DNA of 15,398 bases from Allobrachymonas sp. (GTDB taxonomy: Bacteria > Pseudomonadota > Gammaproteobacteria > Burkholderiales > Burkholderiaceae): assembly GCA_030529305.1 (NCBI GenBank), contig JAUMXD010000031.1, positions 1 through 15,398 on the forward strand, read 5' to 3'. The translations under genes and the position numbers were made by a program. The notes beneath the pieces are model-generated. The model was not told the DNA's origin and made no database searches. It saw nothing but the letters and a program-made list of their open reading frames with translations. This document shows positions 5,725-12,688 of this stretch, piece after piece. Each line of letters opens with the position of its first letter. Position 1 is the first letter of the stretch.

Positions 5725-8253
5725 CTATTTGGCGGTTTCGGTCACGCCGTCCCAATCGTGCGGCGGCGCTTGATCCATGAAGACGTGCAGCCTTTCCTGA
5801 TACAGGGTGTACAGGCGCTTGCCGGGGCGCAATGCCTGCAGGCTTTGCAGCAGCTGCAAGCCTTCATGCCAGGCGCGATTTTGATAGGCCTGCCGGAATT
5901 GCTGCCACAACGCCGCTTCGCGTTGCTGCCCGGCGTCCAATTCGGCAGCGGGCTGCTGCGCATTGAAAGGCGCATACACCTGCAGAGCATGCGCGCGGCC
6001 TTGCACGCGCACGGTATCAAGCCATTGCCACTGCACCTGCGGCGCCAGTTCAGCCGTGCGCTCGCCCGCCACCAGCGCCGCATCATAGTGTTTGGCCAGT
6101 GGCTCCAGGCGCGCGGCCACGTTCACGGCATCGCCCAGCACGGTGTAGCTGCGGCGGATGCTCGAGCCCATGTCGCCCACGCTCACCACCCCGCTGTTGA
6201 TGCCGATATTGAGCTGAATGGGGGGCAGCCCCAGGCTGGCTTGCTCGGCGTTGAAGTCACGCAGCATCTCGCCAATATCGGCCACGGTTTTCACGGCCAG
6301 CCAGGCGTGGTCGGCCACGGGCAGCGGCGCGCCCCAAAAGGCCATGACGCAATCGCCGATGTATTTGTCGATGGTGCCGTGGTTGGCGGCGATGATGGCC
6401 GCAATGCGGTTGAACAAGCGGTTGAGCAGGGCCTGCACCTGCTGCGGCTCCATCGCTTCGGCCATGTGCGTGAACTGGCGAATGTCGCAAAACAGAATGG
6501 TGAGTTCACGCGACTGCACCGCCGTGGTGTAAGCGCCCGGGCGCTTGACCATTTCGCTCACCAGCTCGGCCGGCACATAGTGGCCAAAGAGCGATGCCAG
6601 CTGCTTTTTGGTGCGTGTTTCCAGAAACAGGCCGTAGCTCACGTGCAGCACATAGGTCAGCATCACCGTGACCAAACTGGCTGCCAGCGGCAGCGCCACA
6701 TGCGCTTGCACATAGGCCCAGGCGTTGATGCCCACCATCAGCAGCATCAGCCCCAGGCACACCACCCAGGCCCCTGTAGCGCCCGTGCGCGGCAGCAGCA
6801 CAAGCAGCACGAGCGATGCCAGCAGCACCATCACCAGCGCATAGCCGCGGGCATAGTCCGGCACATAGATGAAGCGCCCATCCAGCATGGCCGACAGCAG
6901 CGTGGCGTGCACTTCAACGCCAGGGTAGTTGGGATTGACGGGCGTGACGCGCAAATCGCGCAGGCCCGGTGCGGATGTGCCCAACAGCGCGATCTTGCCT
7001 TTCAGTTGCTGCGCCTGCAACCGGCCACTGAGCACATCGGCCGCCGAGATGTAGGCAAAGCGCCCAGCCCCTTGCTCACCTTTGCCGCCTTTGCTACGGA
7101 AAGGCACCAGCACCGCGCCGTGAATATCGGTGGGGATATGCAGCACATGCTTGCCCTGGCGCACGTCCAGCCCGCCCAGCTGGGCCTGCCCTGCTCGCGA
7201 CCAGCCCGCCACGGGCGCCAGCTGCACTTCGGTTGGCCCCAGCAGCGCCAGAAACATCGCCAGCGACAGTGATGGGTAATAACGCGAGCCGCCTGACGCA
7301 AGCGTGGCACTGGCTGCATTGCTTGAGCTGTTTGCATCAACAGCTACTGGGCGGCCTTCAATGCCGCCCCCGGCCGACGAGGCTACGCTGCTTCCTGCCG
7401 GCAGAGTTGTCTCATCATTCAACTGCGCCAACAGCGGCACGCTGCGCAAAGAACCGTCGCTATCCGTCAGTGCATTCATGAAGCCCCCAGCTGGCGCTGC
7501 CGCTGCCAACTCGGGCAGATTGGCCGTGTAGCCCTCCATCAAAGGCGGGCCCACCACGCGGCGCGGCCGGGCAAAGGGCCGCCCTGCTTCTTGCTTGGCG
7601 GCCTGGAGCCCCGCCTGGTGTACCGCCTGGCTGGCATCTTTTGTGGCTTCTGGCCTCGATATTCGTGCAGTCGCCTGCACGGGCAAAGGCGTGGGCAAAG
7701 TGCCTGTGCGGCCACTGTCGCGGTTGGATGAAAAGTAATAACCCAGCACCACGCGCTGGCCGCGCACGCTGTCGATCAACTGGCTGTCGTTGCGCATCAG
7801 CGCATCCAGCTGCTGCAAACGCTCGGCCTGCACTTGCTGCTGCGGCAGGTTGTCGTGCAACCATTGCCGAATTTCGGCGTGGGTGTCGTCCTCGGGCTCG
7901 GAAAACAAAACGTCAAAGCCCAGCAAAGCCACTTGCTGGCGCTGCAACAGCTCGGTGTTCAGGCGCGCCAGCACTTGGCGCCGCCAAGGCCAGCGCCCGT
8001 ATTGCTTCAAGCTGGCTTCGTCGATGTCGATGATGACGATGCGTTCGTCTCGCTGCTGTGTGCTATCGAACCAGCGCAAACGGCGGTCGTAAATGCGCTG
8101 CTCAATGCGTTCGATGACTTCGTATCCCGCCAGGCCCAGCACCTGCGGCAACATGAGAGCCAAAGGCAGCAGCAAGAGCACGCTGCGCACAAAGGCGGCC
8201 AGCGGCCAGCGCCGCACGCTTCGCCGCCAAGAAGATGCTACTTGATCGTTCAT
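5725..8253 (-). CDS. CHASE2-domain class III adenylate/guanylate cyclase
   Basis: The 842-residue membrane receptor makes a cyclic nucleotide, probably cAMP, in response to an unknown periplasmic signal. Order of parts: an N-terminal transmembrane helix (about 18-40), a periplasmic CHASE2 domain (about 45-465, with IDIDEASLKQYGRWPWRR near 75-92 and the family's GVEVHATLLSAML near its end), three transmembrane helices (about 470-543), then the cyclase domain (about 580-762). Metal-binding Asp590 (FCDIRQF) and Asp634 (KYIGD) are present, as are Lys630 and Asp708 for adenine selection and Asn711/Arg715 (NVAARLE) for the transition state, so the enzyme looks active. A C-terminal tail of about 75 residues ending WDGV is usual in such cyclases. 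A Ser/Ala/Gly-rich insert lies near 280-325. ATG 8253 is chosen over an upstream TTG; an AAGG lies only one base before it, too close for a normal site. The FHA gene lies upstream, separated by a terminator. Confidence 0.9.
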   Translation of the reverse strand: MNDQVASSWRRSVRRWPLAAFVRSVLLLLPLALMLPQVLGLAGYEVIERIEQRIYDRRLRWFDSTQQRDERIVIIDIDEASLKQYGRWPWRRQVLARLNTELLQRQQVALLGFDVLFSEPEDDTHAEIRQWLHDNLPQQQVQAERLQQLDALMRNDSQLIDSVRGQRVVLGYYFSSNRDSGRTGTLPTPLPVQATARISRPEATKDASQAVHQAGLQAAKQEAGRPFARPRRVVGPPLMEGYTANLPELAAAAPAGGFMNALTDSDGSLRSVPLLAQLNDETTLPAGSSVASSAGGGIEGRPVAVDANSSSNAASATLASGGSRYYPSLSLAMFLALLGPTEVQLAPVAGWSRAGQAQLGGLDVRQGKHVLHIPTDIHGAVLVPFRSKGGKGEQGAGRFAYISAADVLSGRLQAQQLKGKIALLGTSAPGLRDLRVTPVNPNYPGVEVHATLLSAMLDGRFIYVPDYARGYALVMVLLASLVLLVLLPRTGATGAWVVCLGLMLLMVGINAWAYVQAHVALPLAASLVTVMLTYVLHVSYGLFLETRTKKQLASLFGHYVPAELVSEMVKRPGAYTTAVQSRELTILFCDIRQFTHMAEAMEPQQVQALLNRLFNRIAAIIAANHGTIDKYIGDCVMAFWGAPLPVADHAWLAVKTVADIGEMLRDFNAEQASLGLPPIQLNIGINSGVVSVGDMGSSIRRSYTVLGDAVNVAARLEPLAKHYDAALVAGERTAELAPQVQWQWLDTVRVQGRAHALQVYAPFNAQQPAAELDAGQQREAALWQQFRQAYQNRAWHEGLQLLQSLQALRPGKRLYTLYQERLHVFMDQAPPHDWDGVTETAK

Positions 8254-8274
8254 GCCTTTATCACGCGGCAAAGC

Positions 8275-8404: not shown

Positions 8405-8998
8405 TCACGCATCGTATTTTTGCTCGAAGCGCATGCTCACGCCCGCCAGGTCGATTTCATCACCATTCACCAATACATGCTCACGGGCAGCCACTACATT
8501 GCCGTTGCAGGTGAGCGGGCGCGAACCTTCGATATAACGCAAGACGAAGCTCTCGCCCCGGCGATAGATGCTTGCCAGCGCAACGCCCGGCTTTCCCAGT
8601 GTTGTCACCGGTTTGCTCAACTTCACCGTCCGCCCGGCCGATGCCCCGGAAGTTACCCTGATCGAACTGTTGAGCACACCCGTGACCAAGGGCACAACCT
8701 GCTTTTCTGCCAGCGGATAGTCAAAATGCAAACGGAATTTGGCAATATCGATGATGTCGCCGTGCCACAGCTGCTGGCGCTTGACCTTCACACCGTTGAC
8801 CGATGTGCCATTGGTGCTGTTGAGGTCTTCAACATAAAAAGCGCCATCTTCGTACTGGAAGATGGCATGGTCGCCACTGACGGCCAGATTGTCGAGAACG
8901 ATGTGGTTGTACGCGCGGCGGCCCAGCGAAATGTGGTCTCTGTCCATAGGCACCTCGCGCACCGTCACGTCCTCTAGTGAAATGACTAGCTTAGCCAT
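8405..8998 (-). CDS. Tandem FHA-domain signalling protein
   Basis: FHA domains bind phosphothreonine peptides. The 197-residue cytoplasmic protein has a complete first domain (about 1-95) with the binding residues in place: LGRR (25-28), SGDH (41-44) and DLNSTNGTSVNG (58-69). A second, degenerate FHA-like domain (about 112-194) reads TTLGKPG where the first has SLGRRA, lacks the SxxH pair and keeps only CNG of the NG motif, ending VNGDEIDLAGVSMRF. The start is well supported by AAGGG seven bases before the ATG. FHA proteins and CHASE2 cyclases often neighbour each other in Betaproteobacteria, usually near a Ser/Thr kinase or PP2C phosphatase; neither is in this window. The phosphorylated partner is unknown. 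Confidence 0.88.
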   Translation of the reverse strand: MAKLVISLEDVTVREVPMDRDHISLGRRAYNHIVLDNLAVSGDHAIFQYEDGAFYVEDLNSTNGTSVNGVKVKRQQLWHGDIIDIAKFRLHFDYPLAEKQVVPLVTGVLNSSIRVTSGASAGRTVKLSKPVTTLGKPGVALASIYRRGESFVLRYIEGSRPLTCNGNVVAAREHVLVNGDEIDLAGVSMRFEQKYDA

Positions 8999-9196: not shown

Positions 9197-10090
9197 TCAC
9201 AGCAAACCCTGTATCAATCGCCCCATTTCCGACGGATCACGCGTGATTTTGAAGCCGCACTCTTCCATGATGGCGAGCTTGGCTTCGGCCGTATCTTCGC
9301 CACCCGAAATCAGCGCGCCCGCATGCCCCATGCGTTTGCCCGCTGGGGCCGTCACACCCGCAATGAAGCCCACCACGGGCTTTTGCATGTGCGCCTTGCA
9401 CCAACGCGCGGCTTCGGCCTCGTCTGGGCCGCCGATTTCGCCGATCATGACCACAGCGTCGGTATCCGGGTCGTCGTTGAACATCTGCATCACGTCGATG
9501 TGCTTCAGGCCATTGATCGGATCGCCGCCAATGCCCACGGCTGTGGATTGACCAATGCCCAAGTCGGTGAGTTGCGCCACCGCTTCGTAAGTGAGCGTTC
9601 CTGAGCGGCTGACCACGCCCACACGCCCTTTTTTGTGAATGTGGCCGGGCATGATGCCGATCTTGAGCTCATCTGGCGTGATGATGCCGGGGCAGTTGGG
9701 GCCCAGCAGCAGGGTCTTCTTGCCGCCGGCAGCCTCTTTGGCACGCATGCGGCTGCGCACTTCGAGCATGTCGCGAATCGGTATGCCTTCGGTGATGCAA
9801 ACCACAAAGTCCAGATCAGCCTCGACCGCTTCCCAGATCGCATCGGCCGCACCAGCTGGCGGCACGTAGATAACCGACACCGTGGCGCCCGTGGCCTGGG
9901 CGGCTTCACGCACGGTGGCGTAGATGGGAATGCCCTCGAAGTTTTCGCCTGCCTTTTTGGGGTTGACGCCCGCCACATAGCACTGCTGGCCGTTGGCGTA
10001 ATCGCGGCTCATGCGGGTGTGGAACTGGCCGGTTTTGCCGGTAATGCCTTGCGTGATGACGCGAGTGTGTTGATTGATGAGGATGCTCAT
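9197..10090 (-). CDS. sucD: Succinyl-CoA synthetase (ADP-forming) alpha subunit
   Basis: SucD is the CoA-binding, phosphohistidine-carrying subunit of the TCA-cycle enzyme that converts succinyl-CoA and ADP to succinate and ATP; it works as a complex with SucC in the cytoplasm. The 297-residue length is normal. Visible motifs are the CoA-binding loop GITGKTGQFHTR (15-26), LLGPNCPGIITP (128-139), GVVSRSGTLTYEA (158-170), GIGGDPINGL (187-195) and GHAGALISGG, whose His256 corresponds to the E. coli phosphorylated His246. The ATG begins 95 bases after the stop of the extended sucC gene. The region ahead of it holds a tandem 7-bp repeat (CAGATAG twice, minus strand, 10102-10115) and only a weak AGAGA-type binding site, so translation may depend on upstream ribosomes less than in the usual overlapping sucCD arrangement. 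Confidence 0.97.
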   Translation of the reverse strand: MSILINQHTRVITQGITGKTGQFHTRMSRDYANGQQCYVAGVNPKKAGENFEGIPIYATVREAAQATGATVSVIYVPPAGAADAIWEAVEADLDFVVCITEGIPIRDMLEVRSRMRAKEAAGGKKTLLLGPNCPGIITPDELKIGIMPGHIHKKGRVGVVSRSGTLTYEAVAQLTDLGIGQSTAVGIGGDPINGLKHIDVMQMFNDDPDTDAVVMIGEIGGPDEAEAARWCKAHMQKPVVGFIAGVTAPAGKRMGHAGALISGGEDTAEAKLAIMEECGFKITRDPSEMGRLIQGLL

Positions 10091-10185: not shown

Positions 10186-12369
10186 TTACAAAACACGAAA
10201 CTGCACGCGGCGGTTGCGCTGGCGGCCTTCTGCGCTAGCGTTGTCGGCAATCGGTTGCGTCATGCCATAGCCCGCAGCGCTGAGCTTGTCGGCCGCCACA
10301 CCCTGCTGCACCAGATAGTCTTTCACCGCCTGCGCACGCTGCTGCGACAAGGCCAGGTTCGCCTGGGGCTGGCCCACATTGTCGGTATGGCCAGCCACTT
10401 CGCCCGCCACGCCAGCCTCTTTCAGCACGGCAGCCAGTTCATCCAATTCAGCCCGGCTGGCCGCGCGCAGCGTGGCCTTGCCCGTATCGAATTCAACGTT
10501 GATGCGAAAGTCCTTGATGCCTTGCCTGAAAGCATCGGCCGCTTTCATCGCTTGCGGCTGCACGGCGCTGGCATCGACCACCACCGTATCGCCCAGCCAA
10601 CCTGCAAAATGCTGGGGCAAACCGGCCAGCAGCGCTTCACCCAAGCTGCCACCCAGCATCAGGCGATTGTGTTCGGCTTGCAATGTGGCACTGGGGTGCT
10701 GTTTGAGCCAATCCAACACGCTGTGCAGCGCCTTGTCGCTCACTTCAAATGCGGGCAAGCTGGCGTCAATCTGCAATTGATCGACGACGCCTGCATCGCC
10801 AAAGATCTGGCGTGCCGCAGCCAGCAATTGTTTTTTAGCCGCTTCACTGGGCACCTGCCCGGCCAGCACGATCTGCCCCTCGCGCACGCTGGCTTGCCAG
10901 TTGCCTAAAGAAACAGGGGCGGCTTGCGACACAGCACCGCTGGCCACCGCAGCTGCGGGCGGCTTCACCTGCGCCGTTTGCTTCTGGCCGCCACAGAACT
11001 TGAGCATGAGCAGCGCCATCACCCCCAAACCGGCCAGATACACCCACTTGCCCCAACCAGAAGCGGTGGATTCCGCTGCGGGCGCGGCTGTAACGCCTGC
11101 TGCTGCAGCCGTGGTGGCTGTAGCAGTAGTCGCCGCAGTAGCAGCGCCCGCAACAGCTGCGCCAGATGCTGCAGCCGCCATGCCCATTGCGCCCGGCAAA
11201 ACCTGACCCGTGCGGGCGGCCGACACGGCTTTTTCCGCCGCCTCGGCCATGCTGTTGGCAGTGATGATGGGCAGGCCGCTTTCGGCCAGAATGCGGCGGC
11301 CCTCTTCTTCATTCGTGCCTTTCATGCGCACCACCAGCGGCACCGACAGGCCCACGGCTTTGGAGGCCGCCACCACGCCTTCGGCAATGGTGTCGCAGCG
11401 CATGATGCCACCAAAGATGTTGACCAGAATGGCCTTCACCTTCGGGTTTTTGAGCATGATCTTGAAGGCTTCGGTCACCTTCTCGGTCGTGGCGCCTCCG
11501 CCCACGTCCAAAAAGTTGGCAGGTTCGCCGCCATAGAGCTTGATGGTGTCCATCGTCGCCATCGCCAGGCCTGCGCCATTGACCATGCAGCCGATGTTGC
11601 CGTCCAGGCTAATGTACGACAAGCCAAACTTCGATGCTTCCAACTCGGCTGGGTCTTCTTCATCCAGATCGCGGTAGGCCAGAAGCTCCGGGTGGCGGAA
11701 CAGCGCATTGCTGTCGAAATTGAACTTGGCGTCCAGCGCGGTGATGCGACCCTGGCTGTCGCGATTGAGCGGGTTGATCTCTACCAGCGTGGCATCTGTT
11801 TCCATGTAGCAGCGGTAGAGCTTTTGGCACAGATCAACGAATTGCGCGCGCGAATCTGCAGGCATGTTCACGCGCTGGGCCAGCTCTTCGCCCTGCTCGG
11901 CCATCAAGCCCTTTTCCCAATCCACAAACACTTTGGCGATTTGCTCGGGGTGGCTGTGGGCCACTTCTTCGATGTTCATGCCGCCAGCTTGCGAGGCGAT
12001 CAGCGCCACTTGCTGCGTGGCACGGTCGGTCACGCACGAGAGATAAAACTCCTGCTGGATGTCGGCCCCTTCTTCGATGTAGAGGCGGCGCACTTTCTGC
12101 CCCTCGGGGCCGGTTTGATGCGTCACCAGCTGCATGCCCAGCATGTCGCCCGCGATTTGCCTGACTTCATCCACCGAGCGCGCCACTTTCACGCCGCCGC
12201 CCTTGCCGCGGCCGCCTGCGTGGATTTGCGCCTTGACGACCCAAACCGCACCGCCCAGTTTCTGCGCGGCCTCTACAGCCTCTTGCACGGTGAAAGCGGC
12301 AATGCCACGCGGCACGGGTATGCCGAACTGACGCAGAATTTCCTTGCCCTGGTATTCGTGGATTTTCAT
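10186..12369 (-). CDS. sucC: Succinyl-CoA synthetase beta subunit fused to a membrane-anchored BON/OmpA-like domain
   Basis: One uninterrupted 727-codon frame. Residues 1-388 are a full-length Suc[17 protein letters not shown] start, ATP-grasp loop [11 protein letters not shown] (50-60), EINPL (197-201), [16 protein letters not shown] (287-302), [16 protein letters not shown] (316-331), ending [12 protein letters not shown]. coli SucC is also 388 residues. Residues 389-440 are an Ala/Thr-rich linker. Residues about 441-459 are one hydrophobic helix ([14 protein letters not shown] core). About 487-535 is a BON-like fold, with a possible second copy at about 545-605. About 622-727 is an OmpA_C domain with [16 protein letters not shown] and LSQQRAQAV; Asp663 and Arg678 keep the 15-residue spacing of the diaminopimelate-binding Asp/Arg of OmpA. 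Predicted topology puts SucC in the cytoplasm and OmpA in the periplasm. ATG 12369 is chosen because TGGAG lies about ten bases upstream and homology starts there. A free OmpA protein from ATG 11187 is possible but lacks a good ribosome binding site. An assembly or base error removing a stop cannot be excluded. Confidence 0.88.
11056..11205 (-). other. Ala/Thr low-complexity linker at the SucC-OmpA junction
   Basis: Codons 389-438 of the fused gene are almost all GCN or ACN ([18 protein letters not shown] and similar), a repetitive stretch with many GCA/GCT/ACT triplets. It joins the last conserved SucC residue to the transmembrane helix. Codon 389 (CAG, 11203-11205) sits where a normal SucC stop would be expected and is one transition from TAG. 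The linker itself resembles the N-terminal low-complexity tails of stand-alone OmpA-family membrane proteins. Confidence 0.7.
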
Positions 12370-12688
12370 GGGTTGGACACTCCAAATGAATAAGAAGGCG
12401 AACGCTTGGCACAAAGCTTAATCACGGTCTGGCCGCTTGATGCATCGCGCCAGCGCCAACGCATCAATAAAAAGCTCGTACCCGTTTGAATTTTGCTAAC
12501 GAACACAGCGGCCAGCTGCAACCAGCAGGGCCGATCCGCCCCTGTGCCTGAGCCACCGCCTCAAAGGCAGGCACCAGCAATGCCCACGCCACGGCTCGTT
12601 CGCATCAAAACAGCGAGCTACTGTACCATGCGGGACTGATCAGAAACTGACCGCCCAACGCCCTCCAACCACCCGCATTGCACACGCC
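12370..12688. promoter_or_regulatory. Divergent spacer between sucC and argC
   Basis: The 319-base spacer separates two outward-facing genes, so it must hold a promoter for each; I could not fix either with confidence. On the minus strand TTGTGC and TATTCA, 16 bases apart, lie close to the sucC start, but would give almost no leader. TGGAG near 12378-12384 is the sucC ribosome binding site. A small repeat TGCCTG...CAGGCA (near 12545-12578) can form a hairpin. argC itself has no clear ribosome binding site. No protein-coding frame with supporting features is seen. Confidence 0.4.

Follow-up and report, generated by a model that had tools for sequence, protein, structure and literature searches.

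A fusion of SucC to a predicted membrane helix and periplasm-type domains, probably a membrane tether for succinyl-CoA synthetase

We analyzed a stretch of DNA of 15,398 nucleotides (the window) in which the gene of the beta subunit of succinyl-CoA synthetase, SucC, continues in frame into a linker, a hydrophobic segment and two further domains. The gene is preceded by the sequence GGAG (positions 12380-12383), located 10 bases 5' of the ATG, and encodes a 75-kDa protein of 727 residues, 339 of which lie beyond the SucC part. The locus contains the following features:

10186..12369, reverse strand: the whole fused gene, a single open frame of 727 codons and a stop
11206..12369, reverse strand: SucC (ATP-grasp_2 and Ligase_CoA), residues 1-388, recognized by domain matches and by the NF001913 score
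11047..11205, reverse strand: linker rich in Ala and Thr, residues 389-441, disordered in the structural model and fast-evolving
11002..11046, reverse strand: hydrophobic segment, residues 442-456, followed by K-F-C-G, a predicted single transmembrane helix
10552..10920, reverse strand: BON-like region, residues 484-606, proposed from a Pfam BON match at 492-535 only, a match to Rv0899 (2l26) and the model
10210..10491, reverse strand: predicted OmpA-type peptidoglycan-binding domain, residues 627-720, with D663 and R678, recognized by Pfam and by sequence match
9197..10090, reverse strand: sucD, the separate alpha subunit, 297 residues without a tail, scoring 465.6 bits against NF004230

The open frame, the domain matches and the predicted structure of the fusion, which consists of two well-folded halves with disordered stretches and a helix between them, bear out the succession of SucC, linker, helix, BON-like and OmpA parts described in an earlier note on this DNA. 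On the same strand, two further genes follow 3' of sucD in the window, one for an FHA-domain protein (8405-8998) and one for a CHASE2 cyclase (5725-8271).

The SucC half passes the cut-off of the equivalog NF001913 (587.4 bits against 370) and has all of K46, E99, E197, N199 and D213 (E. coli numbering), which we take to be the nucleotide and Mg residues of SucC. The gene of its partner adjoins the fused gene, and the SucD protein exceeds the NF004230 cut-off of 336 bits and carries His256 in a GRMGHAG-type loop, presumably the His loop of the partner subunit. The earlier description of sucD as separate and normal was accordingly confirmed. To judge from score and residues, the SucC half looks like an intact ADP-forming SucC, and it is predicted to be active.

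The OmpA part scored 83.9 bits against Pfam OmpA (cut-off 27.2). Its Asp/Arg pair, D663 and R678, is spaced by 15 residues, and an Asp and an Arg occur at the same spacing in all 75 OmpA-tailed proteins. For OmpA of A. baumannii, a portion of PMC5974059 describes Asp271 and Arg286 as binding diaminopimelate. The OmpA half looks intact and would be expected to bind peptidoglycan, and the claim that both halves keep their key residues and are not decayed agrees with the score and residues of SucC and with the Asp/Arg pair of OmpA. The BON-like region gave a partial match to Pfam BON (28.4 bits against a cut-off of 27, covering profile positions 25-68 of 69), and for most other tailed proteins the precomputed Pfam lists do not include BON. 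In a sequence search residues 484-724 matched Rv0899 (2l26) with an E-value of 4.4e-19, and Rv0899 also appeared at rank 46 in a structure search with a first, poorer model; with a second model the lists were filled by SucC-type chains, and the match of the tail rests on the sequence and the first model.

The predicted membrane segment is the element common to every type of tail except the lysine-rich ones. In the window protein it forms part of a helix (440-457) in the predicted structure, and its uncharged stretch is short, with 15 residues. The survey of this element covered 106 tails, a set of overlapping and related rows from which 22 lysine-rich tails and 23 rows lacking a usable bacterial tail had been removed beforehand; a filter caught the segment in 94 of them, with a median of 15 uncharged residues and the usual pattern K-W-x14-K/R-x-C, and it is visible in the printed sequences of the remaining 12. 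A Cys lies near the end of the segment in 73 of the 94. Of these 94 segments, 49 have the higher flanking charge toward SucC and 26 have it away from SucC, which gives no clear positive-inside bias; for the window protein the two values are 0 (SucC side) and +2 (far side). In P0034 and P0236-P0267 the linkers measure 100-200 residues and carry amphipathic repeats rich in Val, Ala and Gly before the helix.

The fusion is real and conserved across species. An independent Brachymonas sp. MAG (locus L001 of genome G001) has the same fusion, with 90% identity over all 727 residues, and the fusion occurs again in G006 and G003, which belong to the genus of G001. Among the nine genomes of this genus, the OmpA tail was found in G001, G003 and G006, and a tail with a helix and without OmpA in G005 (543 residues). 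Three others (G002, G004 and G009) have a SucC without tail, no tail gene beside it and sucD close behind, whereas no SucC came from G007 and G008 was cut off, making both uninformative. The earlier note had asked about close relatives that might all encode the two proteins separately; with four tailed, three untailed and two uninformative genomes, the fusion survives this comparison. Since three close relatives are untailed, SucC does not need the tail, which is dispensable. In G005 (L023/L100) the linker is Cys-rich, with many CC, CK and CS repeats, and is followed by the membrane segment, the stop and sucD.

The four tailed genomes of this genus and the 13 from the family of G118, most of them drafts, each yielded a single SucC place. 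In the tailed genomes inspected (G001, G003, G005, G006, G039, G118, G137 and G145), sucD lies directly downstream of the tailed gene. The genes beyond sucD are less constant: G006 has both the FHA and the CHASE2-cyclase genes, as in the window, G003 and G004 have a CHASE2-like gene with no FHA gene seen, and in G118, G137 and G145 the genes after sucD differ from those of the window.

A protein search with the tail returned 15 other proteins combining SucC and OmpA among 111 matches. A second search, with the SucC part of P0034, is limited by length to proteins of at least about 429 residues, and the best 120 of its 5842 matches contributed 118 new proteins. Together with the window protein this gave 134 SucC-like proteins, which were classed as carrying OmpA (75), a hydrophobic segment without OmpA (10), a lysine-rich end (22), a 'noTM' extension without OmpA (18) or no tail (9); because the 134 were chosen mostly for extra length, these shares are uninformative on natural frequency. 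The 22 lysine-rich proteins (P0284, P0324, P0345 and 19 others) have histone H1-like ends and no membrane segment, and one source of a lysine-rich-tailed SucC names Betaproteobacteria. Long insect proteins account for 13 of the 18 'noTM' proteins without OmpA. Wasps and ants contribute about 13 proteins with lengths of 886-1011 residues (P0271, P0272, P0277, P0283 and others), which combine SucC-type domains with extra ATP-grasp or ligase matches and are perhaps tandem copies or joined gene models.

The distribution of tails among genomes is patchy. Outside the genus search, G039 encodes a SucC-helix-OmpA protein, and among its relatives (114 of 120 genomes with a match, every open frame >480 being read) tails were found in G039 and G118. 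The family of G118 comprised 64 genomes, 51 of them with a SucC match, and at least 13 of these 51 carry a tail; of the other genomes with a match, 19 were read and 19 were judged by frame lengths and stops, G141 and G156 of the latter being incomplete. Five of these 13 tails have BON-like and OmpA parts, two have OmpA alone and six have neither, ending instead in a Pro/Ala-rich stretch behind the helix. The membrane segment is present in all 13. The short form of the tail in G118 itself lies on a 4.47-Mb contig. Across the order of G118 tails are rare, with 3 of 89 genomes tailed (G118, the chosen centre, G137 and G148); these 89 were the genomes with a match at 1e-150 among 150, and 29 of their loci were read (L163 giving no reading) while the rest were judged from the search.

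Substitution rates indicate that the tail is maintained. Between the window and L001, dN/dS was 0.087 for SucC, 0.32 for the linker, 0.139 for the membrane segment and spacer, 0.092 for the BON-like region and 0.093 for OmpA. Over seven species pairs the values ranged from 0.038 to 0.175 for OmpA and from 0.028 to 0.087 for SucC, all of them rough because several pairs have high dS. The linker evolved fastest (0.32-0.59 in three Brachymonas pairs). Between the window and L018, dN/dS reached 0.301 for the BON-like region and 0.174 for OmpA against 0.083 for SucC, and in the more distant Brachymonas pairs the tail evolved two to four times faster than SucC, with the exception of one pair's membrane segment (0.552). 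Purifying selection on the tail is evident in each of the seven computed pairs, and the tail is less constrained than SucC. Decay was rejected.

The origin of the tail was approached with two trees. The tree of OmpA domains was built on 114 columns from 46 fused and 61 other rows (107 in all) and places 44 of the fused tails in one group (SH-aLRT 93, not starred), with L099 and P0015 apart; since the unfused rows were picked by likeness to the tail of the window, this makes a single origin possible and nothing firmer. The SucC tree of 96 rows intersperses tailed with untailed proteins, with at least seven changes of the untailed label; its class 'TM_BON_OmpA' denotes only OmpA combined with an extension exceeding 300 residues, and one gene appears twice, as L092 and L112. 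This interspersed pattern is compatible with one old gain followed by many losses, with several gains, or with transfer.

We propose that the tail probably tethers SucC, of which these genomes yielded no second copy, to the membrane by its C terminus, that the whole is a single protein and that wall binding is optional. The gene would make one protein. In the cytoplasm its SucC part would fold and, together with SucD, constitute an ordinary succinyl-CoA synthetase. Behind the linker, the single hydrophobic helix would cross the inner membrane and leave the BON-like and OmpA parts in the periplasm, where the OmpA part would bind the diaminopimelate of peptidoglycan and tie the enzyme to the wall. 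The membrane tether would then be the function common to the tailed SucC set, and wall binding a module that lineages lose or lack. We infer that the protein is expressed in one piece, that its helix inserts in this orientation, that the OmpA part binds peptidoglycan and that the cell benefits; SucC is placed on the inside because it is cytoplasmic and has no N-terminal signal, and the benefit may be proximity to other enzymes of the pathway at the membrane, succinate dehydrogenase for instance. The double anchor to membrane and wall put forward in the earlier note is still the best explanation of the window protein, but the wall domain is not the common element, being missing from 6 of the 13 tails in the family of G118 and from G005.

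A bolder form of the proposal, which we offer tentatively and think unlikely as a whole, holds that several betaproteobacterial lineages moved their only succinyl-CoA synthetase to the inner membrane and, in some cases, locked it to peptidoglycan. A step of the Krebs cycle would thereby be fixed in the envelope, and the Cys behind the helix could pair the two beta subunits of the tetramer across the periplasmic face.

There is a smaller chance that the two halves do not stay together. A cut in the linker, or the use of an internal start, could yield SucC and the membrane-wall anchor as two proteins, and the fusion would then serve only to couple their expression. A linker that is disordered in the model and evolves fastest is in keeping with such a cut, as are free BON-OmpA proteins with N-terminal signal-like sequences in relatives (L035-L039 and L055) and four database entries that show the tail without SucC (P0113, P0114, P0116 and P0117, on contigs of 1.9-3.7 kb), although the latter may be contig ends, frame breaks or real separate genes. 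The persistence of the fusion at the same locus across divergent species argues for the single chain. So do the candidate in-frame starts between residue 360 and the membrane segment, before which a Shine-Dalgarno-like motif was absent in 19 of 20 tailed genes, the exception being L104, with such a motif before GTG 381, inside SucC. With one in-frame start so preceded across 20 tailed genes, separate translation of the tail is disfavoured. If the protein were nevertheless cut after synthesis, the locus would represent a new coupling of an envelope protein to a metabolic operon.

It is also rather improbable that the tail is a near-neutral addition, captured long ago, tolerated and inherited without adaptive value. 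Its patchy spread, with at least seven changes of the untailed label on the SucC tree, its rarity in the wide sample (3 of 89) and the close relatives without tail would all be expected of such an addition. However, purifying selection acts on the membrane segment, the BON-like region and OmpA, the Asp/Arg pair is kept in 75 of 75 proteins, and the segment is kept where OmpA is missing.

We likewise doubt that SucC acts as a cytoplasmic sensor or plug that signals to the periplasmic domains which nucleotide or CoA state it is in and thereby makes the wall or envelope respond to the energy state of the cell. The architecture of cytoplasmic enzyme, membrane helix and periplasmic domain would fit such a role, as would the FHA and CHASE2-cyclase genes that follow in the window. 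Yet long disordered linkers are ill-suited to signal transfer, the periplasmic part is missing in several tailed species, and the neighbourhood is not kept, the FHA gene being unseen in G003 and the next genes being different in G118, G137 and G145. Finally, an assembly or sequencing artefact joining two genes has nothing in its favour beyond the oddness of the fusion and was rejected as hardly conceivable, given that the same junction recurs in L001 and in many further assemblies and that the short form of G118 lies on a contig of 4.47 Mb.

If the membrane tether is real, the location of the SucC step in bacteria becomes directly testable, as sister species with the full tail, with the helix only and without tail exist, and a wall-binding module would have been put to use in fixing a central enzyme. 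A synthetase fixed to membrane or wall would amount to a built-in placing of a central metabolic step on the membrane, for which tailed and untailed sisters provide natural controls.

Solved bacterial chains of ADP-forming SucC (NF001913; E. coli 1jkj and 1scu) have 385-397 residues, whereas the window protein adds 339 residues with a membrane segment and periplasm-type domains. To our knowledge, Krebs-cycle enzymes are treated as soluble, succinate dehydrogenase excepted. The wall-binding module is known from motors, secretion systems and outer-membrane proteins. The tail resembles Rv0899 (ArfA/OmpATb) of Mycobacterium tuberculosis in having a BON-type region followed by OmpA; Rv0899 starts with its own membrane segment and, unlike the fusion, has no enzyme in front. 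Another likeness is found in photosystem I, where PsaB (7f4v chain aB, presumably from Gloeobacter) is a core bioenergetic subunit with a C-terminal OmpA-type domain (residues 755-862 of 872, E-value 9.7e-14). In PsaB this domain adds only wall binding, since PsaB is already a membrane protein, whereas SucC is elsewhere soluble; no paper on PsaB with a wall-binding domain was found in the open-access literature. An OmpA-type domain also stands behind a membrane pyrophosphatase (P0066, named from Spirosoma oryzae) and, in P0206 (YidB-OmpA), behind a YidB-like domain and a hydrophobic stretch, but the front domains of these proteins are different.

The closest working analogy is with specialized TssL of type VI secretion. 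Portions of two sources describe TssL as C-tail anchored and inserted with YidC (PMC3426401) and as extended in many systems by a fused C-terminal peptidoglycan-binding domain (PMC8253398). On these partial accounts TssL shares with the fusion a cytoplasmic domain, one C-terminal membrane helix and an optional OmpA-type domain behind it. TssL is, however, part of a secretion machine and not an enzyme, the cytoplasmic domains have no common descent, and the OmpA part scored below the cut-off of the long-form TssL model TIGR03350 (75.4 bits against 139.8), so that the comparison concerns the way of working only. The earlier note had presented the fusion as a form of SucC without described precedent. 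As an isolated oddity it does not stand, given the recurrent set of tailed SucC proteins, but no description of it, and no title on SucC with an OmpA or membrane tail, was found in the open-access literature (subscription journals lying mostly outside the search). An OmpA-type domain fused behind a functional protein is already known from PsaB, the pyrophosphatase P0066 and TssL; a soluble Krebs-cycle enzyme as a putative membrane and wall protein is, as far as the open-access literature was searched, new.
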